Assembly: GCA_000153385.1 (NCBI GenBank)
Contig: CH672374.1
Location: forward strand, 1,428,544 to 1,492,543
Length of the DNA stretch: 64,000 nucleotides
Reading direction: 5' to 3'
Source of the DNA: Flavobacteria bacterium BBFL7
GTDB taxonomy: Bacteria > Bacteroidota > Bacteroidia > Flavobacteriales > Flavobacteriaceae
Below, in pieces: positions 3,783 through 61,171 of the stretch; the first letter of the stretch is position 1, and every line of letters begins with the position of its first letter. A program made the position numbers and the translations under genes. The notes beneath the pieces are model-generated. The model saw nothing but the letters and a program-made list of their open reading frames with translations. It did no database searches and was not told where the DNA came from.

Positions 3783-3796
3783 GCTTTCGCGAAAGC
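3783..3796. repeat. iterated palindrome, copy 1
   Basis: Perfect 14-bp core GCTTTCGCGAAAGC in the gap between the tsf terminator and the next gene. The 5' flanking base is T instead of the consensus C. Confidence 0.9.
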
Positions 3797-3830
3797 GAAA
3801 ATATTGAATTTCATATTATAACAATTATAC

Positions 3831-6263: not shown

Positions 6264-8444
6264 ATGAGGTACTGGCCTTTCTATATCATATTTTTTTTAG
6301 GCATTTTAGTTAATGCCCAGAAAGACGTTACTCCTGCATTAGAAATAATTAAAGCTTGCATAGACCATAAGGAATTAAATAACCCCTTAAAAGCTTTAAA
6401 TACATTCCAATATGACAGCTATGAAAATCTTAAAATTGCCGGTAATCCAGAAGCTATAACAGGACCTGGTTATAAAAAAACAGAATTAAGACGTACGTTA
6501 CTTAAAACAGGTGTCTTTCTTTCTGAAAAAACTTCAAATATTGTTAATGATCAAACACAAGGGTATAAAGAACTCATAACAGCTGCTTTCATGCCAGGTT
6601 TTGAGTCACCTGTATATCCTATTTACAATATTAATTTTCAGTCGCGTAATTTATATCAAGATACCTATGTTGTATTTGATCAACATTATATCAATCCTAT
6701 TTCTGATAGTGGACTTAACAGTTACAATTATGAAACAATAGGAGACACACTGATAGAAAACAGAAAAGTCAACATAATTGGTTTTGCTCCTATTGAAACC
6801 TCTACTTCTACTCTATCGGGAACCCTTTATATAGATCAAGAAACAAAAGCTATTGCAAAAGCAGGATACAATGTCTATAAAGATCTAAGAGTGGAGACTA
6901 AACACAATTTTACCTATGACTCATTGCATCACCTATGGTATGGTTCTTACAGTGAATTGTTTATTAAAAAAACAAACAATATAAAAGAAATAGAACTTTT
7001 TGGTGGTCGCTTTGAAGTAGGTACACGAAAGCAAGAGGAAATCGATGAGAACACCGAGGAACTTTATCTTATCATGAAAAGGTATCAAAAAGATTTTAAA
7101 ACAAATCGTAAGGTAAACTTTGGCCAGAAAGGCGTTTCTATAGAAATACCTCAAAGCTCCATTCACAAACCGCTTAGTTACTGGGACACCTATAGAAATG
7201 AAGAACCATTTACAACGCAAGAACTCGCAAATTTCATGCAGTTAGATAGTATCGTACTTGCTGAGAAAGTCACACGGAAATTAGAAGTGATAGAAAAATT
7301 CAAAGTAGGCTATTATCCAGTTGGCTTTTTTGACATTGATTTGAAGTACCTCATAAAATTTAATGAGTATGAAGCCTTTAGATTAGGTGCAGGAGGAACA
7401 ACTAACGATAAATTTTCTGAGAAATGGCGTGTAAGCGGCTATGGAGCATATGGTACTAATGATAAAGTTTTTAAACACAATATCACTTTAGGATATAGAA
7501 TTAGTGAAGAAAACAACACTTGGATCAGCGCATATAAAACTGATGACATTAATGAATTTGCTGGTGCACGTTTCTTAACTGATGCCAGAGTCTATTCTTT
7601 ATTTGAACCTAGATTAATCAATATCCCGACATTTTATCTTTATAAAGAATATGGCGTTTCATTGCAACAGCGTTTGTTTCCTTCTGTCATTAGTGAAATC
7701 TCGCTTTCGCGAAAGCAAATTTCTCAAACCACTAACTATGTATTTGCGCCCGATGGGAATCCATTTATAAACTATGTTTTATCTGAGGCTACAATTGCAG
7801 CTCGATGGAGTCCAAAAAGTGAGTTTATGAAAACCCCTAAAGGATACCAAGAGACGACTAAGGGTTATCCTATTTTAAGTGGTCAAATTACTAAAGGAAT
7901 CCAAGGTTTTATGAACAGTGATTTTAATTATTTAAAATTTTCTGGTAAAGCTTCTTATACAATTAATCGACTTAACGGATCTAAAACAGCATTTTCTCTA
8001 GAAGGTCATTATGCAACCGGTGATGTCCCGTTAAGCCATCTTTTTCACGCGTATCCTAATTCACCAACAAAAGATGAATTGTTGCAACGTTTCTCTGTAG
8101 CAGGTAGAAATAGTTTTGAAACCATGTACTTTAATGAGTTTTTCTCTGATCGCATTGCCACTTTACAAATGCGACACAATTTTGCTCCATTTCACATAGC
8201 TTCATGGCTCAACCCAGAACTTGTGATCACCTCTCGATATGCCATAGGAGACTTTAATGATAAAGGCGATCATCTTAACATTGACTTTAATAGACTTAGT
8301 AAAGGATATACAGAGTCTGGTATTGAAATCAATAAATTAATTTATGGCTTTGGAATAAGCGCAACTTATAGATATGGTGCATATCATTTGCCGCAATTTT
8401 CTGACAACCTCGCACTAAAATTCACATTCTACTTAGAAATTTAA
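6264..8444 (+). CDS. DUF5686-family outer-membrane protein
   Basis: A 726-residue exported protein with a clear signal peptide (hydrophobic residues 4-17, cleavage likely after VNA before QKD). The C-terminal half has the repetitive aromatic beta-strand pattern of an outer-membrane barrel (GYYPVGFFDIDLKYLIKFNEYEA, RLGAGGTTNDKFSEKW, SGYGAYGTNDKVFKHN, ending KFTFYLEI). These segments resemble Bacteroidota DUF5686 proteins. Most of those also have an N-terminal carboxypeptidase-regulatory-like domain, which is absent here. Function is unknown. A copy of the iterated palindrome lies in the coding sequence and is read as LSRK (near residue 482). Single gene, no neighbour in operon. Confidence 0.65.
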   Translation: MRYWPFYIIFFLGILVNAQKDVTPALEIIKACIDHKELNNPLKALNTFQYDSYENLKIAGNPEAITGPGYKKTELRRTLLKTGVFLSEKTSNIVNDQTQGYKELITAAFMPGFESPVYPIYNINFQSRNLYQDTYVVFDQHYINPISDSGLNSYNYETIGDTLIENRKVNIIGFAPIETSTSTLSGTLYIDQETKAIAKAGYNVYKDLRVETKHNFTYDSLHHLWYGSYSELFIKKTNNIKEIELFGGRFEVGTRKQEEIDENTEELYLIMKRYQKDFKTNRKVNFGQKGVSIEIPQSSIHKPLSYWDTYRNEEPFTTQELANFMQLDSIVLAEKVTRKLEVIEKFKVGYYPVGFFDIDLKYLIKFNEYEAFRLGAGGTTNDKFSEKWRVSGYGAYGTNDKVFKHNITLGYRISEENNTWISAYKTDDINEFAGARFLTDARVYSLFEPRLINIPTFYLYKEYGVSLQQRLFPSVISEISLSRKQISQTTNYVFAPDGNPFINYVLSEATIAARWSPKSEFMKTPKGYQETTKGYPILSGQITKGIQGFMNSDFNYLKFSGKASYTINRLNGSKTAFSLEGHYATGDVPLSHLFHAYPNSPTKDELLQRFSVAGRNSFETMYFNEFFSDRIATLQMRHNFAPFHIASWLNPELVITSRYAIGDFNDKGDHLNIDFNRLSKGYTESGIEINKLIYGFGISATYRYGAYHLPQFSDNLALKFTFYLEI
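7703..7716. repeat. iterated palindrome, copy 2 (in DUF5686 gene)
   Basis: Perfect 14-bp core, read in frame as Ser-Leu-Ser-Arg-Lys. The 3' flank is A instead of G, so the 16-bp form is broken on one side. Confidence 0.9.
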
Positions 8445-10919: not shown

Positions 10920-10933
10920 GCTTTCGCGTAAGC
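10920..10933. repeat. iterated palindrome, copy 3 (variant)
   Basis: GCTTTCGCGTAAGC: one mismatch (A to T) in the right arm. Intergenic, just after the MMPL gene. Confidence 0.8.
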
Positions 10934-12466: not shown

Positions 12467-12488
12467 CCTAGACTCTTTTACACAATAT

Positions 12489-12535
12489 AAATCCCAAAAA
12501 CATATGATGTTTTTGGGATTTTATTTTTTATTAAA
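12489..12535 (+). terminator. terminator after asnS
   Basis: Perfect 15-bp stem (12489-12503 with 12507-12521, containing AATCCCAAAAACAT) and a 3-base loop, then a T-rich tail. 22 bases after the stop. Confidence 0.9.
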
Positions 12536-12625: not shown

Positions 12626-14083
12626 ATGCTTAGACAGTCGTTAAATTTCAAGCTATCACAAAAGCTTTCTCCTCAACAAATCCAGTTGATGAAGTTGATT
12701 CAATTGCCTACTCAGGCATTTGAGCAACGCGTTAAACAAGAGTTAGAAGAGAATCCTGCATTAGATGATGGCAAAGACAGTCTAGATGATGATTTTGATG
12801 AATTCTCTAACCAAGACGAATATGGAGATGAGAATGACACGATGGAAGCAGAAATCAATGTTGATGAATATTTGAGCGACGATGACATTCCTGAATATCG
12901 TACTCAAGCAAATAACTACAGTGCTGACGACGATGAGAAAAGCATTCCATATGCATCTGGCACCTCTTTTACTCAATCCTTAATTGAACAATTAAACACT
13001 AGAAGGTTGAGCGAGCAACATTACGGCATCGCACAATTTTTAGTTGGAAGCATTGATAATAGTGGTTACATCCGTAGATCAATGGAAGATATCGCTGACG
13101 ATCTCGCTTTTACTATGAATATCTATACTGATGTGGCCGAAGTTGAACAGGTTTTAAAAGTGGTACAGCAGTTAGATCCTGCAGGTGTAGGTGCACGTGA
13201 TTTACAAGAGTGTTTATTAATCCAGCTTTCGCGAAAGCGTCATAACGACAGCACAGAGCTAGCCATGAAGTTAGTCGGTGAATCTTTTGACGCATTTAGT
13301 AAAAAACATTATAAAAAAATACTAGAAAAATATCACATTGATGAGGATGAATTGCGTGATGCAATTGAAGAAATAGAACATTTAAATCCAAAACCAGGTA
13401 GTGCCTATGCAGGTGGTAGTACTAGAATGGTGGAACAGGTTGTTCCAGACTTTACGATACGTATTAAAGATGGTGAATTAGAACTCACTTTAAATGGTCG
13501 TAACGCACCAGAATTACATGTTTCTAGAGATTACTCTAATATGTTGAAAGGCTACAAAGAGGCAAAAGAAAAAAGTAAGTCTCAAAAAGACGCCGTAATG
13601 TTTATTAAACAAAAACTAGATGGTGCAAAATGGTTTATTGAAGCTATTAAACAGCGTCAAGAGACACTGTTTATGACTATGTCGTCCATTATGTATTATC
13701 AGAAAGAATATTTCCTAACAGGTGACGAGCGTAATCTAAGACCTATGATACTTAAAGATATCGCAGACGAAATAGGAATGGATGTATCTACAGTTTCCCG
13801 TGTTGCAAATTCTAAATATGTGGACACTCCTTATGGGACTAAATTGATTAAAGAATTCTTTTCTGAATCGATGACAAATTCTGACGGAGAAGAAGTTTCT
13901 ACGAGAGAAATTAAAAAGATTTTAGAAACAGTGATTGGTGAAGAAAGTAAAAGAAAGCCACTAACAGACCAAAAACTTGCCGAATTACTAAAGGAAAAAG
14001 GATACCCAATTGCAAGACGTACTGTTGCAAAATATAGAGAACAACTAGATATTCCTGTAGCAAGGCTGCGCAAGGAAATTTAA
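12626..14083 (+). CDS. rpoN: RNA polymerase sigma-54 factor
   Basis: Sigma-54, 485 residues. Region I at the N-terminus is the Gln/Leu-rich activator-interacting segment (LRQSLNFKLSQKLSPQQIQLMKLIQLP). An acidic region II follows (about 50-110). The core-binding and HTH region contains LKDIADEIGMDVSTVSRV. The RpoN box, which reads the -24 element, is ARRTVAKYRE near residues 463-472. It recognises GG-GC promoters and needs AAA+ activators; none is encoded in this window. One palindrome copy lies inside and is read as LSRKR (about residue 203). Followed after 9 bases by a membrane-protein gene. Confidence 0.96.
   Translation: MLRQSLNFKLSQKLSPQQIQLMKLIQLPTQAFEQRVKQELEENPALDDGKDSLDDDFDEFSNQDEYGDENDTMEAEINVDEYLSDDDIPEYRTQANNYSADDDEKSIPYASGTSFTQSLIEQLNTRRLSEQHYGIAQFLVGSIDNSGYIRRSMEDIADDLAFTMNIYTDVAEVEQVLKVVQQLDPAGVGARDLQECLLIQLSRKRHNDSTELAMKLVGESFDAFSKKHYKKILEKYHIDEDELRDAIEEIEHLNPKPGSAYAGGSTRMVEQVVPDFTIRIKDGELELTLNGRNAPELHVSRDYSNMLKGYKEAKEKSKSQKDAVMFIKQKLDGAKWFIEAIKQRQETLFMTMSSIMYYQKEYFLTGDERNLRPMILKDIADEIGMDVSTVSRVANSKYVDTPYGTKLIKEFFSESMTNSDGEEVSTREIKKILETVIGEESKRKPLTDQKLAELLKEKGYPIARRTVAKYREQLDIPVARLRKEI
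13225..13238. repeat. iterated palindrome, copy 4 (in rpoN)
   Basis: Perfect 14-bp core, read in frame within QLSRKR of sigma-54, in the region between conserved region I and the core-binding domain. Confidence 0.9.
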
Positions 14084-21355: not shown

Positions 21356-21369
21356 GCTTTCGCGGAAGC
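21356..21369. repeat. iterated palindrome, copy 5 (variant)
   Basis: GCTTTCGCGGAAGC, one mismatch at the centre. Flanks TAC/GTA extend the symmetry to 21353-21372. It lies in the gap between the divergent tatD and retropepsin-like genes. Confidence 0.85.
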
Positions 21370-22796: not shown

Positions 22797-22813
22797 CACA
22801 CTCAAATTAATAA

Positions 22814-22832
22814 CTCGGGTCGGGCACCCACA
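22814..22832 (+). ncRNA. candidate S16 leader hairpin
   Basis: The leader of rpsP has a compact GC-rich element, CTCGGGTCGGGCACCCACA: GGGT (22817-22820) pairs with ACCC (22826-22829) over loop CGGGC. In AT-rich DNA this is conspicuous. Flavobacterial S16 leaders have been described as ribosomal-protein autoregulatory motifs (from memory); a covariance-model search was not possible. Confidence 0.45.
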
Positions 22833-22844
22833 AATTTTAATGAT

Positions 22845-23891: not shown

Positions 23892-24610
23892 GCATTTTTA
23901 AATTCAAAGAATTTGAAGTAGCTCAAGATAGTTGCGCTCAAAAAATAGGCACTGATGGTGTCTTACTAGGCGCATGGGCAAGTCAAGACAAGAACCCCTA
24001 TAGTATATTAGACATAGGCACAGGTACAGGCGTTATTTCTTTAATGCTTGCACAACGCTTTCACAGTGCACAAATAGAGGCTATTGAATTAGACGAAGAC
24101 GCTTATGAACAGGCAGCAAATAATTTTGAAAATGCTGCGTGGAGCGATAGAATGTTTTGCTTTCATGCCTCATTTCAAGAGTTTTTTGAGGAAGTTGAAG
24201 ACACTTACGACTTAATTATAAGCAATCCACCTTTTTTTGATTCTAGCAGCATTAAAAATGATTCTTCAATAGAAAGAAATAGAGAGCAAGCTCGCTTTGA
24301 TGATGCACTACCTTTTGAAGAATTACTCTATGGCGTGTATAAATTGCTGGATGATGATGGTATTTTTAGCTGTATTATACCTTATGACAGGGAAAATCAT
24401 TTTCTAAAAATAGCTGCTCACTATAAACTATTCCCTTCACGCATTACTCATGTAAAAGGTACAGACTCTAGCCCTATAAAGAGAAGTTTGCTGGAACTAC
24501 GCTTTCGCGAAAGCGACATACAACACAAAGTGATTACTATCGAGATAAGTAGACACAAGTATACAGAGGATTACATTAATCTAGTCAAGGATTTCTATTT
24601 AAAAATGTAA
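23888..24610 (+). CDS. trmN6: tRNA1(Val) A37 N6-methyltransferase-like protein
   Basis: 240 residues, Rossmann-fold SAM methyltransferase. Motif I is ILDIGTGTGVISLMLAQR (SAM binding) and the catalytic motif is IISNPPFFDSS, characteristic of N6-adenine methylases such as TrmN6. The N-terminal FKFKEFEVAQDSCAQKIGTDGVLLGAW is typical. It overlaps rimM by ATGA and forms a translation-linked operon rpsP-rimM-trmN6. A palindrome copy lies near the C-terminus, read as RFRES. Confidence 0.9.
   Translation: MSIFKFKEFEVAQDSCAQKIGTDGVLLGAWASQDKNPYSILDIGTGTGVISLMLAQRFHSAQIEAIELDEDAYEQAANNFENAAWSDRMFCFHASFQEFFEEVEDTYDLIISNPPFFDSSSIKNDSSIERNREQARFDDALPFEELLYGVYKLLDDDGIFSCIIPYDRENHFLKIAAHYKLFPSRITHVKGTDSSPIKRSLLELRFRESDIQHKVITIEISRHKYTEDYINLVKDFYLKM
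24501..24514. repeat. iterated palindrome, copy 6 (in trmN6)
   Basis: Perfect 14-bp core (16-bp form also perfect), read in frame as Arg-Phe-Arg-Glu-Ser. Confidence 0.9.
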
Positions 24611-27434: not shown

Positions 27435-27448
27435 GCTTTCGCGAAAGC
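27435..27448. repeat. iterated palindrome, copy 7
   Basis: Perfect 14-bp core and perfect 16-bp form, in the gap between mrp (upstream promoter) and the alkyltransferase-like gene. Confidence 0.9.
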
Positions 27449-32058: not shown

Positions 32059-32080
32059 ATTCGCTTTCGCGAAAGCGAAT
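32059..32080. repeat. iterated palindrome, copy 8 (22-bp arms)
   Basis: Perfect core 32063-32076 with flanks ATT/AAT giving a fully symmetric 22-bp element, in the 200-base gap between the response-regulator gene and the M36 protease gene. A second palindrome, TTGTTTAAACAA (32093-32104), lies 12 bases downstream. Confidence 0.9.
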
Positions 32081-36973: not shown

Positions 36974-37945
36974 TTGTTCCAATCAGTATTTAATATCACC
37001 TCATCATCTAATTTTGAAGATCTAGCCCTAGCCATCTTTAAATATCAATTAGACCATAATACTGTATACAATCAATACTGTCATTTAATAGATAGAACGA
37101 CACCACAAACGGTAGATGAAATTCCATATCTTCCTATTTCCTTTTTCAAAAGCCACCAAATCGTTACTAATTCTCACAAGCCACAAATTACTTTTACCAG
37201 TAGTGGAACAACAGGAATGTCTACATCTAAACATCATGTTTTAGACACCAGTGTATATGATTTAAGTCTAGATAAAAGTTTTAGAACCACCTATGGCGAT
37301 CATCAAGATTATGCTGTGCTCGCGTTATTACCACATTATTTAGAAAGGACAGGTTCCTCTTTAGTTTATATGGCCCAACGCTGGATACAAAAAAGTTCAC
37401 ATCCATCTAGCGGTTTTTACCTTAATAATATTGATGAACTTGCGCAAGTACTTAAGACTTTACGACAACAACATCAAAAGGTTATTTTAATAGGAGTCAC
37501 TTTTGCACTACTACAACTTGCAGAAAAATTCCCTCAAGAACTTCCGCAAACTATTATCATCGAGACCGGCGGAATGAAAGGTATGCGTAAAGAAATCATC
37601 AAGCAAGAGCTCCATGACATTTTAAATAACGCTTTCGCGAAAGCGAGCATTCAAAGTGAATATGGCATGACAGAGCTATTATCACAAGCATATGCAAGCG
37701 ACGGTATAACCTTTACCACACCACCATGGATGAAAGTGATCACCAGAGATACTAATGATCCACTAAGTTTATTACAATCCTCAAAAACTGGAGGACTAAA
37801 TATTATCGATTTGGCCAACTATAATTCCTGTTCCTTTATTGCAACCCAAGACTTAGGAAAAGCATTCTCAGATGGTTCTTTTCAAGTCTTAGGCAGATTT
37901 GACCAATCTGATATAAGAGGTTGTAATTTAATGGCTGTGGAATAA
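36974..37945 (+). CDS. LuxE-like acyl-protein synthetase/acyltransferase family protein
   Basis: 323 residues, ANL-superfamily relative similar to LuxE. The ATP-binding motif ITFTSSGTTGMSTSKHHVLD and the IQSEYGMTELLSQAY region are clear. It activates an acyl or carboxyl substrate with ATP; the partner is unknown because no luxCD-like reductase genes are adjacent. The start is TTG at 36974, because the encoded MFQSVFNITSSSNF is a plausible family N-terminus and no nearby ATG exists. A palindrome copy is read as AFAKA near residue 222. Convergent with tyrS, 3 bases between the stops. Confidence 0.75.
   Translation: MFQSVFNITSSSNFEDLALAIFKYQLDHNTVYNQYCHLIDRTTPQTVDEIPYLPISFFKSHQIVTNSHKPQITFTSSGTTGMSTSKHHVLDTSVYDLSLDKSFRTTYGDHQDYAVLALLPHYLERTGSSLVYMAQRWIQKSSHPSSGFYLNNIDELAQVLKTLRQQHQKVILIGVTFALLQLAEKFPQELPQTIIIETGGMKGMRKEIIKQELHDILNNAFAKASIQSEYGMTELLSQAYASDGITFTTPPWMKVITRDTNDPLSLLQSSKTGGLNIIDLANYNSCSFIATQDLGKAFSDGSFQVLGRFDQSDIRGCNLMAVE
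37631..37644. repeat. iterated palindrome, copy 9 (in LuxE-like gene)
   Basis: Perfect 14/16-bp copy, read in frame as Ala-Phe-Ala-Lys-Ala. Confidence 0.9.
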
Positions 37946-39326: not shown

Positions 39327-39329
39327 CAC

Positions 39330-40331
39330 ATGATTTTAGTAACTGGCGGCACTGGACTAGTTGGTGGACATTTGTTATATCGCTTTCGCGAAAGCGGAAT
39401 TCCAACAAGAGCATTATATCGAGACTTAAAAAGTATTGATAAGACACGTGCTATTTTTAACTCTTATGGAGCAGAAAAAGAAGCTCTAGTTGATGATATT
39501 GAATGGATACAAGGTGATGTTTTAGAAATCCCAAGTCTCGAACAAGCTATGAATGGCGTCACACAAGTGTATCATTGTGCAGCTATTGTGGACGGTGCAC
39601 CTTTCTGGCAAATGAAAAAAGTTAATATTACAGGAACCTCTAATGTTATCAATACCGCACAAGCGTATCAAGTTAAAAAACTATGCTACGTAAGCAGTAT
39701 AGCAACTTTAGGCGATCCTGTAGGACAACGTGCAATAAACGAAGAAGACTTTTTTAATCTAGACGCTAAGAATAGCAACTATGCCATATCAAAATATGGT
39801 GGCGAGATGGAAGCATGGCGTGCTACTCAAGAAGGCATGAATGTCGTTATAGTTAATCCTGGTGTAATTATAGGTGAAGGAAACTGGGAAAGTGGATCTG
39901 GTAAATTATTTTCTCAGACGTACAAACAACAACCCTTTTATACTAATGGTTCTAGTGGTTTTGTGGATGTCAGAGATGTCACAAAAGTGATGATACAACT
40001 CATGAATTCTGATATTGTTAATGAGCGTTTTATCATTGTGCAATCATCTATTCATTATAAAGAAGTTTTAAGTAAAATAAGTCACAGTTTAAAAAAGAAA
40101 GCGCCTCGCATTTTGGTTCCTAAATGGATGCTATACATCATATCAGCAATAATGAAAATAGGTCAATGGATAGGCTTTAAAAGAGGTTTAGAACGCACAA
40201 CAGTTCAATCCTTAACGTCTCACAGTAAATATGATGGCTCAAAAATCACAAAATTTGTAGATTTCAACTATACACCTATAGATAAAAGCATCCTAAGGGT
40301 AAGTGATTATTACTTAAAAGCTATTAAATAA
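39330..40331 (+). CDS. NAD-dependent epimerase/dehydratase family protein
   Basis: 333 residues, extended short-chain dehydrogenase. It has the Rossmann motif TGGTGLVGGHL (5-15), the VYHCAAIVDG segment, and the catalytic YxxxK in YAISKYGGE. The substrate-specific C-terminal half is followed by a hydrophobic segment (WMLYIISAIMKIGQWIGF) that may associate with membrane. Exact substrate unknown. A palindrome copy lies in the first helix, read as RFRES (18-22). Convergent with the DUF4296 gene. Confidence 0.88.
   Translation: MILVTGGTGLVGGHLLYRFRESGIPTRALYRDLKSIDKTRAIFNSYGAEKEALVDDIEWIQGDVLEIPSLEQAMNGVTQVYHCAAIVDGAPFWQMKKVNITGTSNVINTAQAYQVKKLCYVSSIATLGDPVGQRAINEEDFFNLDAKNSNYAISKYGGEMEAWRATQEGMNVVIVNPGVIIGEGNWESGSGKLFSQTYKQQPFYTNGSSGFVDVRDVTKVMIQLMNSDIVNERFIIVQSSIHYKEVLSKISHSLKKKAPRILVPKWMLYIISAIMKIGQWIGFKRGLERTTVQSLTSHSKYDGSKITKFVDFNYTPIDKSILRVSDYYLKAIK
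39382..39395. repeat. iterated palindrome, copy 10 (in epimerase gene)
   Basis: Perfect 14/16-bp copy, read in frame as Arg-Phe-Arg-Glu-Ser just after the nucleotide-binding glycine motif. Confidence 0.9.
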
Positions 40332-44313: not shown

Positions 44314-44337
44314 ATTACGCTTTCGCGAAAGCGTAAT
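44314..44337. repeat. iterated palindrome, copy 11 (24-bp arms)
   Basis: Perfect core 44319-44332 with flanks ATTA/TAAT producing a fully symmetric 24-bp element, the longest copy here. Just after hemD and before a separate terminator. Confidence 0.92.
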
Positions 44338-46469: not shown

Positions 46470-46522
46470 TTATATATCTTTTTATGAGAAGTCTTTTAAA
46501 TTGCCTCAAAATTACAACAGAT

Positions 46523-47887
46523 ATGCGTCATATACTGATTATAGGAGCAGGTAAATCAACTGGAGTACTAGTAGACTACCTTTTAAAAAAATCAGAAGAG
46601 GAGAATTTAAAACTCTTAATAGCCGATAAAAATATAGATCAAGCAAAACTTCTAAGTCAAAATCATAAAAATGCAGATGCCGTCGAGCTAGACATTTTTA
46701 ATGAAGATCAACGTAGAGCTTACGTTCAAAAAGCATCTATAGTAATATCCATGTTACCGGCTCGATTTCACATTGAAGTAGCAAGAGATTGTATCACCTA
46801 TGGTAAATCAATGGTAACGGCTAGCTATGTTAGTCCAGAGATGCAAGCACTAGATGAAGATGCTATAAAAAAGAATCTCATTTTCATGAATGAAATAGGT
46901 GTCGATCCAGGAATTGATCACATGAGTGCAATGCAAGTTTTAGATAGAATAAGGGCTAAAGGTGGAAAGATTTTATTATTTGAGTCTTTTACAGGTGGCC
47001 TGGTAGCTCCTGAAAATGATGATAATTTATGGAATTATAAATTCACGTGGAATCCTCGCAATGTCGTTACTGCTGGGCAAGGTGGTGCGGCAAAGTTCAT
47101 TCAAGAAGGACAATATAAATATATTCCATACCATAAACTGTTTAGAAGAACAGAGTTTTTAGACGTAGACGGTTATGGACGTTTTGAAGCTTATGCAAAT
47201 CGAAATAGCTTAAAATACCGATCGGTATACGGATTAGACGACATACTGACGTTATATCGTGGCACAATGCGTCGTGTAGGATTTAGTAAAGCATGGAATA
47301 TGTTTGTGCAACTGGGCATGACAGATGACACTTATGTTATTGAAGACTCAGAAAACATGAGCTACAGGGATTTTGTGAATAGCTTTTTACCTTATTCTCC
47401 GACAGATTCTGCAGAACTTAAAATGCGTCATATACTCAAAATAGATCAAGACGATATTATGTGGGATAAACTAGTAGAGCTTGATTTATTTAATGCTACA
47501 AAAAAGGTAGAACTTAAAGAAGCTACACCAGCGAAGATCTTACAGAAAATCCTAGAAGATTCTTGGACTTTACAATCGGGTGAAAAGGATATGATTGTAA
47601 TGTATCATAAATTTGGGTACGAACTAGATGGTCACAAAAAACAGATAGATAGCACCATGGTCTGTTTAGGTGATGGCGAGATGCAAACTGCAATGGCCAA
47701 AACAGTTGGATTACCTGTTGCTATAGCCGCGCTTAAAATTTTAAATGGTGAAATTAATACTCCAGGAGTGCAAATTCCTATAACAGCTCCTATCTATGAA
47801 CCTATCTTGAAAGAATTAGAAGATTATGGGATTCGCTTTCGCGAAAGCGAAATGGAATATCTCGGGTACAACCCATTGAGCTTGTAA
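46523..47887 (+). CDS. saccharopine dehydrogenase-like NADP oxidoreductase
   Basis: 454 residues. The N-terminal Rossmann segment LIIGAGKSTGVLVDYLL is followed by DAVELDIFNEDQRR, SIVISMLPARFHIEVARDCI and the EIGVDPGIDHMSAMQVLDRI motif, typical of saccharopine reductase/dehydrogenase-like enzymes. The reaction direction (lysine synthesis or breakdown) or another substrate cannot be told. ATG 46523 was preferred over an ATG 13 codons earlier because MRHILIIGAG is the family start. A palindrome copy near the end is read as RFRES. Confidence 0.82.
   Translation: MRHILIIGAGKSTGVLVDYLLKKSEEENLKLLIADKNIDQAKLLSQNHKNADAVELDIFNEDQRRAYVQKASIVISMLPARFHIEVARDCITYGKSMVTASYVSPEMQALDEDAIKKNLIFMNEIGVDPGIDHMSAMQVLDRIRAKGGKILLFESFTGGLVAPENDDNLWNYKFTWNPRNVVTAGQGGAAKFIQEGQYKYIPYHKLFRRTEFLDVDGYGRFEAYANRNSLKYRSVYGLDDILTLYRGTMRRVGFSKAWNMFVQLGMTDDTYVIEDSENMSYRDFVNSFLPYSPTDSAELKMRHILKIDQDDIMWDKLVELDLFNATKKVELKEATPAKILQKILEDSWTLQSGEKDMIVMYHKFGYELDGHKKQIDSTMVCLGDGEMQTAMAKTVGLPVAIAALKILNGEINTPGVQIPITAPIYEPILKELEDYGIRFRESEMEYLGYNPLSL
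47835..47848. repeat. iterated palindrome, copy 12 (in saccharopine dehydrogenase-like gene)
   Basis: Perfect 14/16-bp core; symmetry extends to 20 bp (TTCG...CGAA). Read in frame as Arg-Phe-Arg-Glu-Ser, 12 residues before the stop. Confidence 0.9.
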
Positions 47888-49167: not shown

Positions 49168-51278
49168 CGATCAAAAGACCAATTCATTATATCTGTACGT
49201 AAGCCTATATTTAACCATGTAGTATTTTGCTCTGTCACGTTCCCTACTTCAAAATGAGGATTAAAATCTCGATAAATCACCTGTCCATAAATCCTTAATT
49301 GACTTGCAGGATTAATTAAATAACCAGCTTCTAATTGTGCATACATAAAAGTTACTCTATTTCCTTGACCTAATTCATTCCCATTATCAGCAATACGATC
49401 ATCTTCACTACGGTATATGTCGCCACCATAAAAAGCGTTATCAATCCCATCGTTAATGTCTAGTCCTCTTTCACCTAACGTGAATTGAGCGTTACCATAC
49501 CACCTATCTTTAGTATACCTTCCTATGAAAGTGGTTTCATAAAAGTTTGCACCCCATGGATGTGCTAGCGCTTGATTACTGTTGGCATAGTTAAGTACTA
49601 CCGTATTATGGCTGTATGTATATGGTCGTACTCTATTATATTCTGCTTGCAGCATTAAGTCTTTTACTTTAAATGCATTTTGCCATTTAAGACCTAATTG
49701 ATATGCACTTTTATTTTGATAACTACCATCACCATTCACTACAGACGCACCAGAGAATTCATCTAGGACTAACTGTGCATATCCTGTAATTCTATCTGTG
49801 AATTTATACTTTGCTGTGGCTCCTATTAAAGCATTTCCTCCACGAGAGCCAGTTTGCAGCTCTATGGCTTGATAAAATATAATAGGATTTAAATAATTAA
49901 AATCAAAGCCTCGTTGATTATCATCTTGCCATAGAACACTTTCAAAAAGCCCGATGTTAAGCTTTTCTGTAGCGTTCCAGCTTAAGTAATGATATACCAT
50001 AAATTTTGTTCGGAAAGAATCATCTGCGGTTACCTCAGACCTTACATCTCTTAAAGAGGTGTATAAAACTGTATAATCTAATTTCCAAAACTTTGCATTC
50101 ACCTTTGCATAAGGAAAAGGTTGTGAATTATCACTAAGTACTAAAGAACGATAACCATCTCCTATAAAATGTTGTCCGTGACCTAATTGAAGATCAAAGT
50201 ACTTGCTAGGTTTATAATTAATGTAACCTGTTGCGACTGGATAGTCATAAATGGACTCACCGCCATCTTCTGCAATACCACGTCCAGGTACAATACCAGG
50301 ATTACCACCATCTGGAGCGCGACTCTCAATTTCTCTATTAAAATAACCGGCAAACCGTCCTTGACTTTCCTGTATACTAGCACCAAATGTTATTTGCTTT
50401 CCTATTCCTCCACTTATGTTTACCAATCTGGTATTATTAAAGGTATTGATATCATCACCGCTATCCTTACCTATTTGAAGGTCTACACCAGGATCCACCA
50501 CAAACCAATAGTCGTCGCCTGCTACTTCAAAAAAGTGCTCATTCCACCATTTTTTACCTAGCCACGTAGACTCATTTTTCATTAATGATGCTCTCTCTGC
50601 CTCAAGATCAAAGTATTGATCTACATAAGAAAAAGTATATGGTTTTACCGCTGTATGAGCATTATTCCCTATCCTATTCATAGCTGCATCATATCTATGA
50701 TATCTTTGATTTGATAATGGAATTAGACCATTAGATTTAAGTTGGTGGCCTTGATATTGATTTGATTTAATATCTGGGTACTCTTTGTTCGCTTTCGCGA
50801 AAGCGATACTATCTAAAGCATTTGAACCAGATATAGCCTCTATTTTTTCCTGCTCTTTACCATTATAAACCTGAAAAGAGCCATCTAGAGTCATAGGAAC
50901 TGGCACTCTTAATACAAATTGCATATAAGTAGGATTACCATTATAAGTAGGCGCTGCAATTACTGGTAATTGATTAAATGAATTCTTTACTGCTTCAGTT
51001 AGCTCTGCATAAACAGCATCAAAACGAATAGGGACAAATTGACCTTCTCGGTTCACCTCAAACCGCAAAGTCACTTTTTCAGAATTATTTAATGGCAATT
51101 GCTGTGGATGTTTGTAATTCTTATAAAGCGCTGCATATAATTCACTGTAAAAACAATCCTCTAACTGGTTAACTGGCAAATCTTTACACTCCTCAAAATA
51201 AGGGAATTTCTCTACTGGATTTTGAGCCATAGCCATTCCTATACTTAACAAACTAATAATCAGAAATAAATTCTTCAT
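49164..51278 (-). CDS. remB: gliding motility outer-membrane protein RemB-like
   Basis: About 704 residues from Met 51278 (Met 51287 is an alternative). A signal peptide (MKNLFLIISLLSIGMAMAQ) precedes a TonB-like alpha/beta domain (about 20-120) and a long outer-membrane barrel region (GYINYKPSKYFDLQLGHGQHFIGDG, GIGKQITFG, ending NIGLRTDIMNWSFDR). RemB is required for efficient gliding in F. johnsoniae, where it lies near sprA with tonB and vanZ-like genes, matching this layout (from memory). A palindrome copy is read as AFAKA. The name is by architecture and context. Confidence 0.75.
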   Translation of the reverse strand: MKNLFLIISLLSIGMAMAQNPVEKFPYFEECKDLPVNQLEDCFYSELYAALYKNYKHPQQLPLNNSEKVTLRFEVNREGQFVPIRFDAVYAELTEAVKNSFNQLPVIAAPTYNGNPTYMQFVLRVPVPMTLDGSFQVYNGKEQEKIEAISGSNALDSIAFAKANKEYPDIKSNQYQGHQLKSNGLIPLSNQRYHRYDAAMNRIGNNAHTAVKPYTFSYVDQYFDLEAERASLMKNESTWLGKKWWNEHFFEVAGDDYWFVVDPGVDLQIGKDSGDDINTFNNTRLVNISGGIGKQITFGASIQESQGRFAGYFNREIESRAPDGGNPGIVPGRGIAEDGGESIYDYPVATGYINYKPSKYFDLQLGHGQHFIGDGYRSLVLSDNSQPFPYAKVNAKFWKLDYTVLYTSLRDVRSEVTADDSFRTKFMVYHYLSWNATEKLNIGLFESVLWQDDNQRGFDFNYLNPIIFYQAIELQTGSRGGNALIGATAKYKFTDRITGYAQLVLDEFSGASVVNGDGSYQNKSAYQLGLKWQNAFKVKDLMLQAEYNRVRPYTYSHNTVVLNYANSNQALAHPWGANFYETTFIGRYTKDRWYGNAQFTLGERGLDINDGIDNAFYGGDIYRSEDDRIADNGNELGQGNRVTFMYAQLEAGYLINPASQLRIYGQVIYRDFNPHFEVGNVTEQNTTWLNIGLRTDIMNWSFDR
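50791..50804. repeat. iterated palindrome, copy 13 (in remB)
   Basis: Perfect 14/16-bp copy (18 bp with one flanking pair), read in frame as Ala-Phe-Ala-Lys-Ala on the minus-strand gene. Confidence 0.9.
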
Positions 51279-51333
51279 GGAAATCATTGCATTAAACGGC
51301 TAAGATACTTGTTTTATAGGAGTCTTTAAACAG

Positions 51334-53941: not shown

Positions 53942-56900
53942 CTAATTACCAAAGGTATACCTTAAGGTAATTCCACTTCTTATTGTAGTTTGAGGGAAGG
54001 CTGTAGAAATAGCAAATTCTGAGAAGGTATGATCGTAATAAAATATGGCTGTAAATGCCTGACTTAAATTATAATCTGCTGTAAATTTAAGACCGTAAAT
54101 GGTTTGGCCAGCGGTTGCCTGGCTGTTATCTAAATCGAGATATCTCACAATAGTAACATTATCTCTGATTGATCCATCCAGTCGCATGTTTAAATCACTT
54201 TTTATGATTTTACTACGTCCACCTACATTAGTCTTGAACTTTAAATCTTTGATACGATATCCTAATCCTAGAATCAGTTCATTACCATTAATTTCTGTAA
54301 GTAAATTATTATCAAAACTCAGAGAAATTACGCGATCCTTTCTCAACTCTGCAGCAACTGAAACAGAATTTTTCATTTCAAAGTCCAATTTAATTAATGG
54401 GCTGAATTGCTCTGATAAATTGATGTTGAAATATAAATTACGTGATTTAAAATCTCCGGTCTGGTTTAATGCATCTGGACTTTGATCGCTATAGGTTAAA
54501 TTCCTATTACCAGCAGAGTAATCTAGGTTAGTCTGAAATTGGTTAATAGTATAACTAGATCGATAACCATGGTTGATAGAGAATCTACGGAATCTTTTCT
54601 TGAACCATTTTAGATTCATTAAACCAGTGTATTTAACGGTCCAATTAGGTAACGGTATATCCTTAAATGCATTTGTTTTTTGATCCTTTGCATCTCGACC
54701 TTCATAAGCAGCTAAAAAGGCTGGCAATAATACATCCTGACTATTTCTACTAAATCCTTCAGGATAGCCATCTGCATCACGAGAATATGTCGTGTTTCCA
54801 TAAAACTCTTCAGCAAGACGTTCTGCTATGATAAGTCGGTTGTTTCTAAAGTTATCAAAGTTTTTAGACTCATTTATGGTACTCTTATTAAACGCAGTAC
54901 CTATCATATTAGTAGTTATACTATAATTACCATATGTATTAGGTGTTAAAGATTGATAAGTAAGATTCTCTGGATCAACTCTAAAATTCTCCGTGTAGGT
55001 TTCTTGATACGCACGATTACCTACTAAGTCAATTTTTAAATCTTTTAATAAATCAACATTTACATTAATATCTAACTGACGACTTTCTACCTCACTATAT
55101 TGTTGATTAAAATCTTGGAATAAGGTCAACCAACCTCTTCTCGCTGCAATGTCTCTAATCTCTGCCTGAGAACCAAAGGTGAATCCAGTAGTAGGCTTTA
55201 AAGTCCCTATAAACCCAATCTCTGGTGTATAACCAGGTAAAAAGATACCGTTGTTTTCTTGATAATTAATCTGAGCTCTCTTAATTGAAGTCGCAATACC
55301 TATTAAGGTATTGTAAGCCTTATTACCAAAATTCTCTTTAGGTGTTTTATCCTTTTCTTCTTGAGTATTTGCTGCTCCAGGTGTGGATGGCCTCGCATTT
55401 CTGGATCTCGTATTATTGCGGCTGCGAGCCCTATTTGCTGCAGGACCAAATTTCACCTTTTCCAGTCCTACATATTTATACAATTTATCTAAGTCAAGCG
55501 TAGTGTTTAATCGATGAGTATTTGCATTTTGTACGGTATTTCCTAAATCAGGAATACCATCTAATTGTGCAAATTGTTGCGAGTTACGCTGCCAGTTAAA
55601 GTCTGCGGTGTATGTGTAGCTCGCTTTCGCGAAAGCGAGAAACGGAAACTTATCTAGTGGCAATTTATAGGTTGCCTGAAGTTGCTGTGAGTGTGAGTTA
55701 GGAATACCTTCATCCAAGAAATCTGTCCAAATTCCGTAGCTCTCGTCAATCGAGTCATCATCATTAATATAGCTGCGTATAACACGGTCATTATTTGCAG
55801 ATAAATTGAATTGTAAGGATTTAGTAATATCCCAATTAATCGCATATTGATGATTCATAGTATAATTGCGATTAGACAATGGGTCTATTGTAATATTTTG
55901 AGCATCTGGTATTCCATCTCCATCAGTATCTACCGGATTAGTATCTAGCTGTAAGTCTCTAAATTTCTGAGTATTATATTGTCTTAAAATATTACCGCTA
56001 GCTGCAAAACTATTAGGCAATAGATTTACATTAAAATCTTTTACAAATTTTAAATACTTATTAGAACCGACTAAATTTTTAAACGGCTCTACCTCTGCTT
56101 TAGGAAAGGCATAGTTATATGTAGTACCAACGTTAACGGATTGATCTTGAAATTTTTCGATTTCAAAATTACGCTGGTCTGTTTGGTTATAAGATCCTGA
56201 AAATGTGAAGTTCTCAATATCGTAAGGCATTGGTTTTGCATCACCGGTACGCTCTTTACGCACACCGATAAGATTCACACTTTGTCGCATGGTGTAATCT
56301 TCAGATTGTTCTCTAATGATTTCACGCTCTGCCTCATTTGCAGCATTATCGAGCCTCGTCTCCAATTCGATATCTTCAAATTGCGGATCAAATTGTGGCG
56401 TTATAGTTTCTTCTCCTATACTATAAGAGAATGGCAATTTAACGCCCCATTTTTCTGGAAGTAACTGACCTAAATTAAGATTAGTAGTTACATCATATTG
56501 AGTTACATTTTCTCGATCTCTCTCATTAGGACCTTGTTCAATAGCTCCAAAACCAATGGTGCTTCTTCTACCTGTCGCGCTTACACTTGCAAAATCTGCA
56601 ATGTTAGCATCCATATTCATCACTGCTGCATATCCACCTTGATTCTTTAAACCTGACAGACGCATTTCATTAAACCAAACTTCACCACAAATATCATTTG
56701 TACTGGCATTGCGCACACCTATCATCATAGCACGCACATCTCCAAAGTTAGGGTTCCCTTTTATTCCATATATGTGTTGATTAAGGTTTCCTGCAGTCGC
56801 ATCAGTAAGTGTGGACTCATCAAAGAAATTTGCCTCTGATATATTTAATGAAGGGTTACTTAAAACTCGAGCTTTAATTTCCTGAAGTAATGATAGATCA

Positions 56901-59900: not shown

Positions 59901-61171
59901 TCAAACCCTTCATTAACCTGAGCATTACCAAAACCAGACTGAACCGTAGAAATATCTCTTATTGCATCTGTTAAAATGGATTGCGATGCGCCATTTATTC
60001 CTCGAGGATTAAAATCATTATTATCATTAGATGGAAAACTACCTGCTGGAACATTTAAAAATCCTCCAGGAACGGCATCTAGCCCTATATTATCAGGATC
60101 AGATTCTCCTATGTCTTGGATAGCCACTAAGTTCCTAACACCTTGCGTTCGATTACCACGATTAGTAATCCATACTTCAGCCCTAGTGATTTGAATATTT
60201 GTATTGATAAAAGGATAGTTAGCTAATGTCTTATCATAATTATCGCGGAAATAATGTGACAAGAAATAATGTCTATTCTCATCATAATCTAAAGAGAAAA
60301 AATCAAAATCATTAACAGACGCTCCACCGGCCGCTTGAACTGTTCTTGATTCTGATTGTTGTTCTGAGAACACACCAGTTATTCTAGTTTTCCCGAATTG
60401 TAACTCAGCCTTAACACCAAAAAGACTCTGCGCACCACGTATTAGTGTAGAATTGAGCGGCATACTTATATTACCTACCTCAATACTCTGTAAAATATCA
60501 TCTTCTGTTGGAGTATAATCTAGCTTGATCTGATTTTGAAAGTTAAAGGTACTTTGTGTATCGTAATTAGCATTTACATTTAAACGCGTCCCTACTTTCC
60601 CAACTAGACTTAGATTAATACGTTGGTTGAAATCAAAAGTAGCATTGGATCTGTTACGTGGTGAAAAACTAGGATTATCTGATTTATTAAACAACATCCC
60701 TAAGTCAACTTCTACAGATCCCTGTGGTACAACAGATATCTCTGTACCTCCAAAAATACTTTCAAACAAGTCTGAATTCACATAGAAATTCGGTAATAAG
60801 TTTTTCTGTTTTTCTTTATCGGCTTCTGTCTTACCAGCAATTGCAGCGGCTTTATCTTTAAAATACTGCGTCATGCGTTCTTTCATCACACGATCCAGAT
60901 ATTCTTCACGAGTTAACATAAATGGATATCCTATTTGAAATCCATTAAACTCACTTCTATAGATATACCGATCTAAGTCCGGATCATAAGTGTAAAGAGT
61001 AACAATGCTAGGCGGATCTGGCAAATCAATTCCTCCTATAATCACACCAGTCTTAGTACTGTCTTGTGCGGTCGTAGGTGGTGTTTGTTGCGCTTTCGCG
61101 AAAGCGAATATCAAAAAACACCCAAAGAATGCTACATACCTATTTATAAGTTGAAGAGAACTATATTTCAA
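53942..61171 (-). CDS. sprA: T9SS outer-membrane translocon / gliding protein SprA
   Basis: 2409 residues, the very large outer-membrane pore of the type IX secretion system, through which Sec-exported cargo leaves the cell; also needed for gliding. A signal peptide (residues 1-27) has its AKA|QQ cleavage site built by a palindrome copy. Characteristic segments: DPSF-like PQGSVEVDLGMLFNKSDNP, NISMPLNSTLIRGAQSLFGVKAELQFGK, GRIIFTTVEPFGNYLF, FEGQAAAYVDDFEGSQTSIDILTPFSW, SGRNEMRL-like EVWFNEMRLSGLKN, and a long C-terminal barrel ending in FAISTAFPQTTIRSG and YTFGN. Family members are about 2300-2500 residues, so it is full length. It starts 3 bases after ruvA and is probably cotranscribed. Confidence 0.96.
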   Translation of the reverse strand: MKYSSLQLINRYVAFFGCFLIFAFAKAQQTPPTTAQDSTKTGVIIGGIDLPDPPSIVTLYTYDPDLDRYIYRSEFNGFQIGYPFMLTREEYLDRVMKERMTQYFKDKAAAIAGKTEADKEKQKNLLPNFYVNSDLFESIFGGTEISVVPQGSVEVDLGMLFNKSDNPSFSPRNRSNATFDFNQRINLSLVGKVGTRLNVNANYDTQSTFNFQNQIKLDYTPTEDDILQSIEVGNISMPLNSTLIRGAQSLFGVKAELQFGKTRITGVFSEQQSESRTVQAAGGASVNDFDFFSLDYDENRHYFLSHYFRDNYDKTLANYPFINTNIQITRAEVWITNRGNRTQGVRNLVAIQDIGESDPDNIGLDAVPGGFLNVPAGSFPSNDNNDFNPRGINGASQSILTDAIRDISTVQSGFGNAQVNEGFDYVTLENARKLSDNEFTLNTQLGYISLRQRLNNDEVLAVAFQYTAGGKVYQVGEFANDGVVATDVIDSTDPTQIAVNNQNLVVKLLKSNLTNVSEPIWDLMMKNIYNLGGSQLSQEDFRMNIFYQFPPELNYITPAVPTLANPVAEPLPADVDQTTLIKVFNLDRLNQQGDPQPDGDGFFDFIPGLTIDQENGRIIFTTVEPFGNYLFDKLDNTPGTGSEDYDQPTSYNANQAKYVYRDMYVTTKAQALQTADKNKYLIKGQYKATGREGIPIGAFNVPRGSVTVTAGGRTLQEGIDYSVDYQGGRVIILDQALLNSNTPIQVSTENNSVFNQQTKRFTGINVEHRFSDDFILGGTFLNLKERPITQKSTYGFEPINNTIVGANFIYNTQVPFLTRMVNKLPNIDTDVESNISLRGELAYLFPGSPAGDNFEGQAAAYVDDFEGSQTSIDILTPFSWSLASVPQAFEGAGSSSNALAYNFSRAQLSWYSIDPIFYGTQRPADITDDDISDPRTRRVFIDELFPNVDLQQGQQQVINTLDLNYLPSQRGPYNYNPAAAGSNILPNPEDNWAGIMRQFSSTDFEQTNVEYIQFWVMDPFVYDPTNNGGTISINLGSISEDILKDNRKQYENGLPDDGGTALTNATDYGKVPVNQSLVYAFDTDGAQRVNQDIGLDGLSDIEENNQFGAFGPEDPARDNYEYFLATSGDIVTRYRRYNNTQGNSPTTVTQDDRGATTLPDVEDINRDNTMNTIDSYFEYDIPMDPARMTVATNEYIFDTKEVQTTLPNGNTINTRWVQFRVPLSDPNREVIGGINDFRAIRFMRMYLTDFNQETLLRFGSMDLVRGDYRRYTATLEENLDDPSDDGTVFEVEGVNIENNESRQPIPYRLPPGVEREELRTQNQNIRQNEQSLALRVCGLEPEDGRSVFKNIRIDMRQYENLRMFVHAESLVNEVAIGDDELEAFVRIGIDYTDNYYEIRLPLKPTAFGTAVREEIWPEANEFNIDLSLLQEIKARVLSNPSLNISEANFFDESTLTDATAGNLNQHIYGIKGNPNFGDVRAMMIGVRNASTNDICGEVWFNEMRLSGLKNQGGYAAVMNMDANIADFASVSATGRRSTIGFGAIEQGPNERDRENVTQYDVTTNLNLGQLLPEKWGVKLPFSYSIGEETITPQFDPQFEDIELETRLDNAANEAEREIIREQSEDYTMRQSVNLIGVRKERTGDAKPMPYDIENFTFSGSYNQTDQRNFEIEKFQDQSVNVGTTYNYAFPKAEVEPFKNLVGSNKYLKFVKDFNVNLLPNSFAASGNILRQYNTQKFRDLQLDTNPVDTDGDGIPDAQNITIDPLSNRNYTMNHQYAINWDITKSLQFNLSANNDRVIRSYINDDDSIDESYGIWTDFLDEGIPNSHSQQLQATYKLPLDKFPFLAFAKASYTYTADFNWQRNSQQFAQLDGIPDLGNTVQNANTHRLNTTLDLDKLYKYVGLEKVKFGPAANRARSRNNTRSRNARPSTPGAANTQEEKDKTPKENFGNKAYNTLIGIATSIKRAQINYQENNGIFLPGYTPEIGFIGTLKPTTGFTFGSQAEIRDIAARRGWLTLFQDFNQQYSEVESRQLDINVNVDLLKDLKIDLVGNRAYQETYTENFRVDPENLTYQSLTPNTYGNYSITTNMIGTAFNKSTINESKNFDNFRNNRLIIAERLAEEFYGNTTYSRDADGYPEGFSRNSQDVLLPAFLAAYEGRDAKDQKTNAFKDIPLPNWTVKYTGLMNLKWFKKRFRRFSINHGYRSSYTINQFQTNLDYSAGNRNLTYSDQSPDALNQTGDFKSRNLYFNINLSEQFSPLIKLDFEMKNSVSVAAELRKDRVISLSFDNNLLTEINGNELILGLGYRIKDLKFKTNVGGRSKIIKSDLNMRLDGSIRDNVTIVRYLDLDNSQATAGQTIYGLKFTADYNLSQAFTAIFYYDHTFSEFAISTAFPQTTIRSGITLRYTFGN
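55623..55636. repeat. iterated palindrome, copy 14 (in sprA)
   Basis: Perfect 14/16-bp copy, symmetric over 20 bp (CTCG...CGAG). Read in frame as Ala-Phe-Ala-Lys-Ala in the barrel part of SprA. Confidence 0.9.
61092..61105. repeat. iterated palindrome, copy 15 (in the sprA signal peptide)
   Basis: Perfect 14/16-bp copy. On the minus strand it encodes residues 23-27 (AFAKA) of SprA, immediately before QQ, i.e. the signal-peptidase recognition site. Confidence 0.92.

Follow-up and report, generated by a model that had tools for sequence, protein, structure and literature searches.

REP and BIME sequences consist of hundreds of palindromic units, and SlmA sites and matS are protein sites scattered over the chromosome; Noc, SlmA and matS sites each number in the tens. 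A comparable scatter of binding sites on the chromosome is described for Noc (PMC4331003). HIP1 (GCGATCGC), an exact palindrome of cyanobacteria, reaches densities of 300–2700 per Mb in most cyanobacteria outside one group, according to PMC4390886. The uptake sequences of Haemophilus influenzae (USS) are described in PMC1939737 as a core with T-rich flanks, evenly spaced, with 65% of copies in ORFs and an origin by point mutation; the figure given there for the DUS of Neisseria gonorrhoeae is 35% in ORFs. The spacing of USS and DUS is about 1 kb (PMC7811141). Ever since HIP1 it has been asked what makes certain bacteria load their genomes with copies of a single exact palindrome.

The palindrome GCTTTCGCGAAAGC is present in 13 exact and two single-mismatch copies in the window, the whole 64-kb stretch of DNA analysed here (Table 1). 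No copy has two mismatches and three have three. All 15 positions reported in a preliminary description of this DNA were reproduced exactly, and a recount agrees with its ten copies perfect across 16 bp. That description also likened the repeat to HIP1. The likeness holds in that both are exact palindromes, hugely over-represented, iterated through genes and gaps, and of unsettled function; the emphasis placed on the inner hexamer TCGCGA does not hold. The HIP1 core is 8 bp long, whereas the element described here has a core of 14–16 bp, long arms, and an inner hexamer that is only slightly enriched on its own. Its density in the source genome (G000; 551 copies, 178 per Mb) lies below the HIP1 range and, unlike HIP1, it is also found on phages and islands.

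Table 1. Positions in the 64-kb window of the GCTTTCGCGAAAGC sites and of one extended element.
Feature	Position	Context
Site, exact	3783..3796	intergenic, between two + genes
Site, exact	7703..7716	within 726-aa DUF5686-family gene (6264-8444 +)
Site, one mismatch	10920..10933	directly past stop of MMPL/RND-like gene (8513-10915 +)
Site, exact	13225..13238	within sigma-54 gene
Site, one mismatch	21356..21369	divergent intergenic, TatD-type DNase / aspartyl protease
Site, exact	24501..24514	within TrmN-like methyltransferase gene (23888-24610 +)
Site, exact	27435..27448	intergenic, between two - genes
Site, exact	32063..32076	divergent intergenic
Site, exact	37631..37644	within LuxE-like gene (36974-37945 +)
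Site, exact	39382..39395	close to 5' end of sugar-epimerase/SDR-type gene (39315-40331 +)
Site, exact	44319..44332	between convergent hemD-like and PEP carboxykinase genes; not followed by a T-run
Site, exact	47835..47848	3' end of saccharopine-dehydrogenase-like gene (46484-47887 +)
Site, exact	50791..50804	hypervariable N-terminal linker of 707-aa gene (49164-51287 -)
Site, exact	55623..55636	within sprA (53942-61171 -)
Site, exact	61092..61105	N-terminal part of sprA
Extended-element example	50773..50822	core flanked by 18 bp of arm at both ends, reaching 25 bp out from the centre

A chance origin of this abundance is excluded, as the preliminary description had maintained: a 664-kb part of G000 contains 115 exact copies against 0.001 expected under a second-order Markov model, the same pattern read backward does not occur in the genome, and the genome-wide count is far from background. 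The motif is abundant in every genome of Nonlabens (288–857 copies each, 23 of 23) and Dokdonia (369–905 copies each, 18 of 18), and in one further relative within the family, G211 (408 copies); these are referred to as carriers. The 233 other Flavobacteriaceae genera sampled have at most 19 copies each. Genome averages vary more than twofold among species of a single genus. A single origin of the carriers was rejected on the ParB tree, which requires three changes, at least two of them forced by the starred branches. In the complete chromosome of G014, each of 20 stretches of 20 kb sampled around the circle contains 2–9 sites, and no regional restriction was seen in these stretches, the origin and terminus positions being unmapped. 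The sites thus resemble those of Noc, SlmA and matS in being scattered over the chromosome, with binding that is putative here, but differ in numbering in the hundreds, in showing no regional restriction in the G014 stretches sampled, and in having no accompanying ParB paralogue. No other iterated palindrome was seen in 11–50 kb from each of 13 non-carrier genomes, a sample too small for exclusion. The motif or repeat is not mentioned for Nonlabens or Dokdonia among the literature matches listed, which leave most subscription journals outside their scope, and the publications pairing Nonlabens with a palindrome concern other subjects, judging from titles and the beginnings of abstracts.

The sites are evenly spaced, a feature that the preliminary description had missed. 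The 14 gaps in the window have a coefficient of variation (CV) of 0.40 (p = 0.00025 for evenness versus chance). In a larger sample comprising 47% of the G000 genome, 291 gaps average 4748 bp with a CV of 0.46; only 12 are shorter than 2 kb (100 expected) and seven longer than 10 kb (35 expected), and this evenness was matched by none of 100,000 random sets. The CV is 0.47 in G014, 0.54 in G211 (p = 0.004) and 0.64 in Dokdonia sinensis (p = 0.023), and mean gaps are 3.0–5.7 kb across the four genomes measured. The gaps show no helical phasing. The longest site-free stretch in G000 is 20.9 kb, and 29.7 kb separate two exact sites in G001, where the CV of 0.92 is not significant; consequently, no single stretch strictly requires a site.

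The element is larger than the palindrome. It is defined by the 14–16 bp core (C)GCTTTCGCGAAAGC(G) and two T/G-rich, C-poor dyad arms that point at the centre and extend about 25 bp from it, giving a unit of about 50 bp. The position-specific arm profile of G000 correlates with that of G014 (r = 0.75), Dokdonia (0.61), G211 (0.41) and virus contigs (0.61), and none of these values was reached by any of 5000 permutations. Copies have nothing in common beyond the core and the biased arms. The possibility that the arms form a hairpin or a longer palindrome was rejected, as arm-to-arm matches approximate those given by base composition (131 of 300 versus 112.7 at offset 2) and are near expectation at four other offsets.

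Of 300 sites in G000, 183 (about 61%) lie inside ORFs, although site density is about eightfold higher in intergenic DNA. In the 664-kb part, sites in genes use every reading frame, and no preferred orientation was seen among the 48 intergenic sites, on which ground a terminator or promoter role was rejected. In the one 20-kb block compared across Nonlabens, sites occupy orthologous codons; with this and the genome-wide count, the repeat withstood both conditions that the preliminary description had named as refuting it. Together these observations uphold the earlier statement that no IS ends, terminator or coding family accounts for the copies. In sprA, the site at 55623 has an identical codon position in 18 of 18 Nonlabens and that at 61092 in 17 of 18, the exception (G017) having a substitute site 48 alignment columns upstream. 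Only 34 of the 1106 invariant residues of sprA (3.1%) retain one codon across the 18 species; among its Ala columns, three of 42 have an invariant codon, and all three fall within sites. The AFAKA codons at site 50791 are invariant in all 17 Nonlabens in which the 707-aa gene was found, within an otherwise hypervariable linker. Of 17 further Nonlabens stretches, 15 have a site in the ortholog of the saccharopine-dehydrogenase-like gene. Selection on sites inside genes therefore acts at the level of DNA. The long core, the measurable spacing constraint and this freezing of codons in a hypervariable protein region make the case unusually clean.

Sites also occur on viral DNA. Two to seven are found in 21 of 30 virus records, which were retrieved by the motif itself and include several near-copies of one another. 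One record has sites within its terminase and portal genes, and an integrase match was obtained for only four of the seven records with four or more sites.

The reading that we favour, at a confidence slightly short of an even chance, is that the element is the putative binding site of a dedicated, dimeric, sequence-specific chromosome-organising protein, with one site per interval kept by selection. One dimeric protein would bind the ~50-bp dyad site and would bridge or wrap DNA, or set its topology, every few kb; selection would maintain roughly one site per interval, and resident mobile DNA would gain sites since it would be obliged to behave as chromosome. Of the roles proposed in the preliminary description, that of a putative nucleoid-protein site is the one that still fits best. 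In favour of this reading are the even spacing, the sites all round the G014 chromosome, their spread through every frame and between genes, the codon conservation in sprA and in the 707-aa gene, the substitute site in G017, the correlated arm profiles and the virus records with sites. Screening 47% of the genome yielded 35 HTH-like proteins, from which 18 were selected and the first ten tested; none of the ten was present in the five carriers and absent from the five non-carriers tested. One Cro/CI-type protein was found in each of the three further Nonlabens genomes tested; the seven other genomes gave no match to it beyond a single short, weak one. The lack of a binder among these candidates, the long site-free stretches, and the differences in density within a genus all count against a chromosome-organising protein, as do the motif-based retrieval, the near-copies and the few integrase matches of the virus records, and the site-free phages P12024S and P12024L. 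If the element is an organising site, chromosome structure on a 5-kb scale could be read from sequence alone. The family offers matched carrier and non-carrier genera as well as phages with and without sites, and, according to record titles, strains of both Nonlabens and Dokdonia are held in culture collections.

The main rival is a signal by which cells would recognise their own DNA during natural uptake, similar to USS and DUS: fragments bearing a site would be imported preferentially, and recombination would spread the sites by molecular drive. This is somewhat unlikely, perhaps a one-in-several proposition. Iteration, even spacing, a location in ORFs for about 61% of copies, and T-rich blocks flanking a core all have counterparts among the uptake sequences described in PMC1939737; the core with flanks, the spacing and the ORF fraction, as traits of the H. 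influenzae sequences, also count against the chromosome-organising reading. Intervals of a few kb would go well with the uptake of long fragments. The spacing is about 5 kb here compared with about 1 kb for USS and DUS. The known uptake cores are non-palindromic, whereas this one is a perfect palindrome with two symmetric arms. Secretin (PF00263), the outer-membrane pore of known systems, was matched in only one of seven carriers (and three of 20 non-carriers), the sole carrier match lying at 334 kb in G001 within a 20-kb gap between exact sites. Sites across phage head genes would not be expected under transformation drive. The uptake signal proposed earlier, if of the Haemophilus/Neisseria type, would be without its usual secretin in six of seven carriers.

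A Chi-like self mark is improbable. Under this reading, DNA lacking a site every few kb would suffer degradation by a host nuclease or inefficient repair, to which certain phages and islands would have adapted. It is consistent with a density of about one site per 7 kb on 11 virus records that each have at least three, with mean gaps of 3.5–6.2 kb on four island clusters, and with most chromosomal gaps being below 10 kb. However, phages P12024S and P12024L, near relatives of each other whose recorded host belongs to the Nonlabens group and has an uncounted number of sites of its own, contain no site within two mismatches, and chromosomal stretches of 20–30 kb are also site-free. Known Chi sites are, moreover, much shorter than a 14–16 bp palindrome with dyad arms.

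Still less probable is a strict HIP, an oligomer kept via an orphan methyltransferase of its inner sequence. Iteration of the palindrome through genes and gaps parallels the cyanobacterial case (PMC4390886), and TCGCGA shows a slight excess outside the sites (121 copies against an expectation of 86 once exact sites are masked in 1.464 Mb of G000, and 33 versus 18 in 100 kb of G211). This 1.4-fold excess in G000 is minor compared with the excess of the full site, which is more than 100,000-fold; there is none in D. sinensis (12 versus 14 expected), CGCG is not enriched, and a site with conserved arms does not look like a methylase target. The TCGCGA methylase reading was accordingly dropped, and the stress laid earlier on the hexamer gives way to a unit of core plus arms.

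It is very unlikely that a ParB protein reads the element as a parS or Noc-type site. The TTTC..GAAA of the site is reminiscent of parS and Noc sites, but its half-site register differs from that of those motifs. A single chromosomal ParB is present in eight of the eight carriers tested, and a Noc-like paralogue as reader was rejected, none being found in these genomes. The HTH of the Dokdonia and G211 proteins resembles that of non-carriers, and sites are found all round the chromosome rather than clustered at one place. Within the sequence searched, 664 kb for G000 plus 100 kb apiece for G211 and D. sinensis, the canonical parS motif has no match at two or fewer mismatches. Taken as a mark of the ParB/Noc type, the segregation role suggested previously is thus unsupported in the parts searched. 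Finally, an origin from mobile or repetitive DNA (REP, MITE or IS end) is scarcely credible: the numerous identical copies resemble REP/BIME as hundreds of palindromic units but have only the core and biased arms in common, lie mostly in ORFs, in contrast to the extragenic insertion of REP/RAYT or IS-borne repeats, and are matched in relatives without the site by no insert of its length at the places compared, where the alignment is loose.

The chromosome-organising reading could be extended, with more doubt, to a chromosome ruler: one protein and its ~50-bp dyad site may partition the entire chromosome into segments of a few kb. Such a system would have entered separate lineages of Flavobacteriaceae, or persisted in them and disappeared elsewhere, without a change in specificity. 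Resident phages and conjugative islands would then have to carry sites, and the motif could serve as a barcode of former residence. Small groups of sites in other genera at first resembled parS. In G097, G307 and G072, sites fall largely within clusters of 31–78 kb, and this clustering, together with the cargo genes, led us to reject a parS reading of the small groups in favour of mobile islands rather than centromeres. These motif-marked islands, some with metal-efflux genes, probably passed through Nonlabens or Dokdonia. Ten site-bearing genes from such groups were identified by type: five are of the metal-efflux type, including RND pumps, an outer-membrane efflux protein and P-type ATPases, and the other five are other cargo-like or unknown genes.

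All 15 copies that the preliminary description placed in the window were recovered where it put them, and its expectation of a genome-wide count above background was borne out: the 3.10-Mb genome of strain BBFL7 (G000; genus Nonlabens; 7 contigs; RuvA 98% identical to that of Nonlabens ulvanivorans G019) holds 551 exact copies of the 14-bp core, the reversed control pattern none. Copies occur in all 23 Nonlabens genomes (288–857 each) and all 18 Dokdonia genomes (369–905 each), and G211, from a further genus of Flavobacteriaceae, has 408; whole Nonlabens and Dokdonia genomes average one exact copy per about 3.6 to 8.7 kb. Within a family sample of 299 genomes from 236 genera, 61 contain any copy, and hundreds are found only in five (three Nonlabens, G211 and Dokdonia sinensis G227), the rest having at most 19; genomes with hundreds of copies are here termed carriers. 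In a sample of the class, matches occur in 16 of 296 genomes, and G000 alone has more than four. The 16-mer is present in at least 106 stretches of named genomes; among the matches listed, 67 of 80 belong to Nonlabens or Dokdonia and the remaining 13 are scattered across other taxa. A ParB tree of 30 genomes, a single-gene tree with some weak forks, groups Nonlabens with non-carriers, away from Dokdonia and G211. The carrier state requires three changes on this tree, at least two of them forced by starred branches; the element was therefore likely acquired by transfer, or else lost in many lineages.

The sites are evenly spaced. The G000 sample covered 1.464 Mb, 16,471 nt of it left out, with 258 exact and 42 one-mismatch sites; six of 297 gaps were dropped for spanning left-out letters. 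The 291 gaps used have a mean of 4748 bp and a CV of 0.46, with 12 below 2 kb (100 expected) and seven above 10 kb (35 expected), and none of 100,000 randomly placed sets was as even. Spacing is also even in Nonlabens G014 (CV 0.47, 93 gaps), G211 (CV 0.54, p 0.004, 17 gaps) and D. sinensis (CV 0.64, p 0.023, 20 gaps), and on the complete G014 chromosome each of twenty 20-kb stretches around the circle contains 2–9 sites. The part sampled of another carrier, G001, gave, for exact sites, a CV of 0.92 (p 0.24) because its gaps reach 29.7 kb; short gaps are still scarce there (5% below 1 kb, 20% expected).

By a simple longest-ORF call, 183 of the 300 G000 sites lie within ORFs (0.137 per kb) and 117 are intergenic (1.07 per kb). 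In a 664-kb part, intergenic sites by strand arrangement (++ 14, -+ 10, +- 9, -- 15) roughly follow available length, and coding sites are spread over all three frames (44, 25, 20). We compared one 20-kb block around sprA (TIGR04189) across 18 Nonlabens. The preliminary description had looked to conserved positions in relatives, and the repeat does hold them in this block: of the two sprA sites, one occupies the same codon in all 18 genomes and the other in 17, the exception being G017, which has lost it and carries another site 48 alignment columns upstream. Only 34 of 1106 invariant SprA residues keep a single codon; for alanine the figure is three of 42, all within sites. In the neighboring 707-aa gene, which has no family match, the AFAKA codons are invariant in all 17 Nonlabens that yielded the gene, within a linker where little else aligns. 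These frozen codons argue that selection acts on the DNA of the site and that the protein follows. In Dokdonia and G211 the same linker bears a site at other columns (with one mismatch in G211), and in the non-carrier G029 it bears none. The differing columns indicate that, in the sprA block at least, site placement was independent in the two groups.

Coordinates of features discussed in the text
Feature	Sequence	Position	Strand
sprA	window	53942-61171	-
707-aa gene	window	49164-51287	-
Terminator-like inverted repeat	window	3726-3771	
Terminator-like inverted repeat	window	12485-12530	
S16-Flavobacteria ribosomal leader	window	22806-22841	
Oxygenase and methyltransferase genes, phage P12024L	L289	16409-18674	
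Cro/CI-type HTH protein, 251 aa	L334	18544-19299	

The element extends beyond its core. Mismatches in the 42 one-mismatch sites fall at half-site position 5 in 24, position 6 in 12, the outermost position in five and position 3 in one, and the outer C is present in 88% of G000 half-sites. Outward of that C, the 5′ arm has little C and is rich in T and G as far as some 25 bp from the center, with a weak second block near 30–35 bp; the 3′ arm mirrors it, and the bias is alike at coding and intergenic sites. A longer hairpin was rejected, because the arms flanking one core agree with each other only at about the rate that composition predicts. In position-specific arm profile, G000 correlates with G014 (0.75), with Dokdonia (0.61), with the 22 sites of G211 (0.41) and with virus contigs (0.61, from 35 of their 41 stretches); shifting by 1–10 bases lowered the correlation, and in 5000 permutations the observed values were never reached. 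Most likely one factor with one specificity reads the sites of all these groups. Two related terminator-like inverted repeats in the window, 76% alike and followed by T-rich runs, were also seen, one directly adjoining a site.

An exact 16-mer scan of virus sequences returned 41 stretches in 30 records, a sample chosen by motif that possibly includes fragments and some near-copies. At least two sites occur in 21 records and four to seven in seven. Across 11 of the 12 records holding three sites or more, spacing is more even than random placement gives (CV 0.58, p 0.001). Ten proteins from multi-site contigs include matches to portal, terminase, tail-sheath, baseplate, capsid, tape-measure and integrase proteins, and in one contig sites lie within the terminase and portal genes. 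Integrase (PF00589) is found in nine of the 30 records, including four of the seven with four or more sites. In the closely related Nonlabens phages P12024S (35,700 bases read) and P12024L (35,000), a search allowing two mismatches found no site, against about seven expected in each at G000 density, and no PF00589 integrase was found in either. Five records (G616, G618, G619, G621, G624) have in common a site pair with a spacing of exactly 4480 bp, which suggests that phage lineages conserve sites too. P12024L has a 2OG-Fe(II) oxygenase-domain gene close to a DNA methyltransferase gene; P12024S has other genes there.

In three non-carrier genera the few sites are clustered: all 16 of G097 within 78 kb, 18 of 19 in G307 in two clusters, and 12 of 17 in G072 within 38 kb. 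Among the island genes are metal-efflux genes in G097 and, in G307, a type-I-like N6 methylase; spacing is less even (CV 0.78–0.87). We infer that these islands are elements once resident in carriers that later moved. In islands of several non-carrier genera (L031, L033, L034, L036, L046, L362), a 405-aa outer-membrane efflux gene beside RND-pump genes bears sites, often as a pair 933 bp apart.

We tentatively propose, at somewhat short of even odds, that the site serves chromosome organization through a putative dimeric binder. The symmetry of the core suggests that a dimer would grip it. The dimer would also guide the DNA along the two arms, whose T/G-rich composition would suit bending. Such a role would need one site per few kb anywhere on resident DNA, independent of genes, which would explain why spacing is even, why G017 has a nearby substitute, why no strand or gene is favored, and why phages and islands carry sites. 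A DNA uptake signal would account nearly as well for the regular spacing and for the plan of a core with flanks; we prefer chromosome organization for the breadth of what it explains, and consider uptake rather unlikely, the balance being tipped by sites inside phage genes and by the secretin (PF00263), which is missing from six of seven carriers (present in three of 20 non-carriers). The sole carrier secretin, at about 334 kb on G001 contig C4, falls between two exact sites 20 kb apart, in what may be an acquired region. A Noc-type site was rejected, as a Noc-like ParB paralogue is absent from eight carriers, and an insertion-borne repeat likewise, as no insert of the site's length was found at the places compared.

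Canonical parS was absent within two mismatches from the stretches searched (parts of G000, G211 and G227). Outside exact sites the TCGCGA hexamer of the core occurs 121 times in the 1.464 Mb of G000 sampled (86 expected), 33 in G211 (18 expected) and 12 in G227 (14 expected). Among the matches listed in literature searches on the sequence, iterated palindromes and repeats in these genera, no paper concerned this motif. It shares its outline with HIP and USS/DUS but lacks a defining feature tested for each, so we group it more broadly among iterated genome-wide DNA signals.

Ten of 18 selected HTH candidate binders, drawn from 47% of the genome, were tested, and none fits. A Cro/CI-type HTH protein was found in all three other Nonlabens tested and, at E 1e-8, not in Dokdonia, G211 or five non-carriers, save one short weak match (G061). 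The window also contains an S16-Flavobacteria ribosomal leader, scoring 35.9 bits against an Rfam threshold of 35.7.
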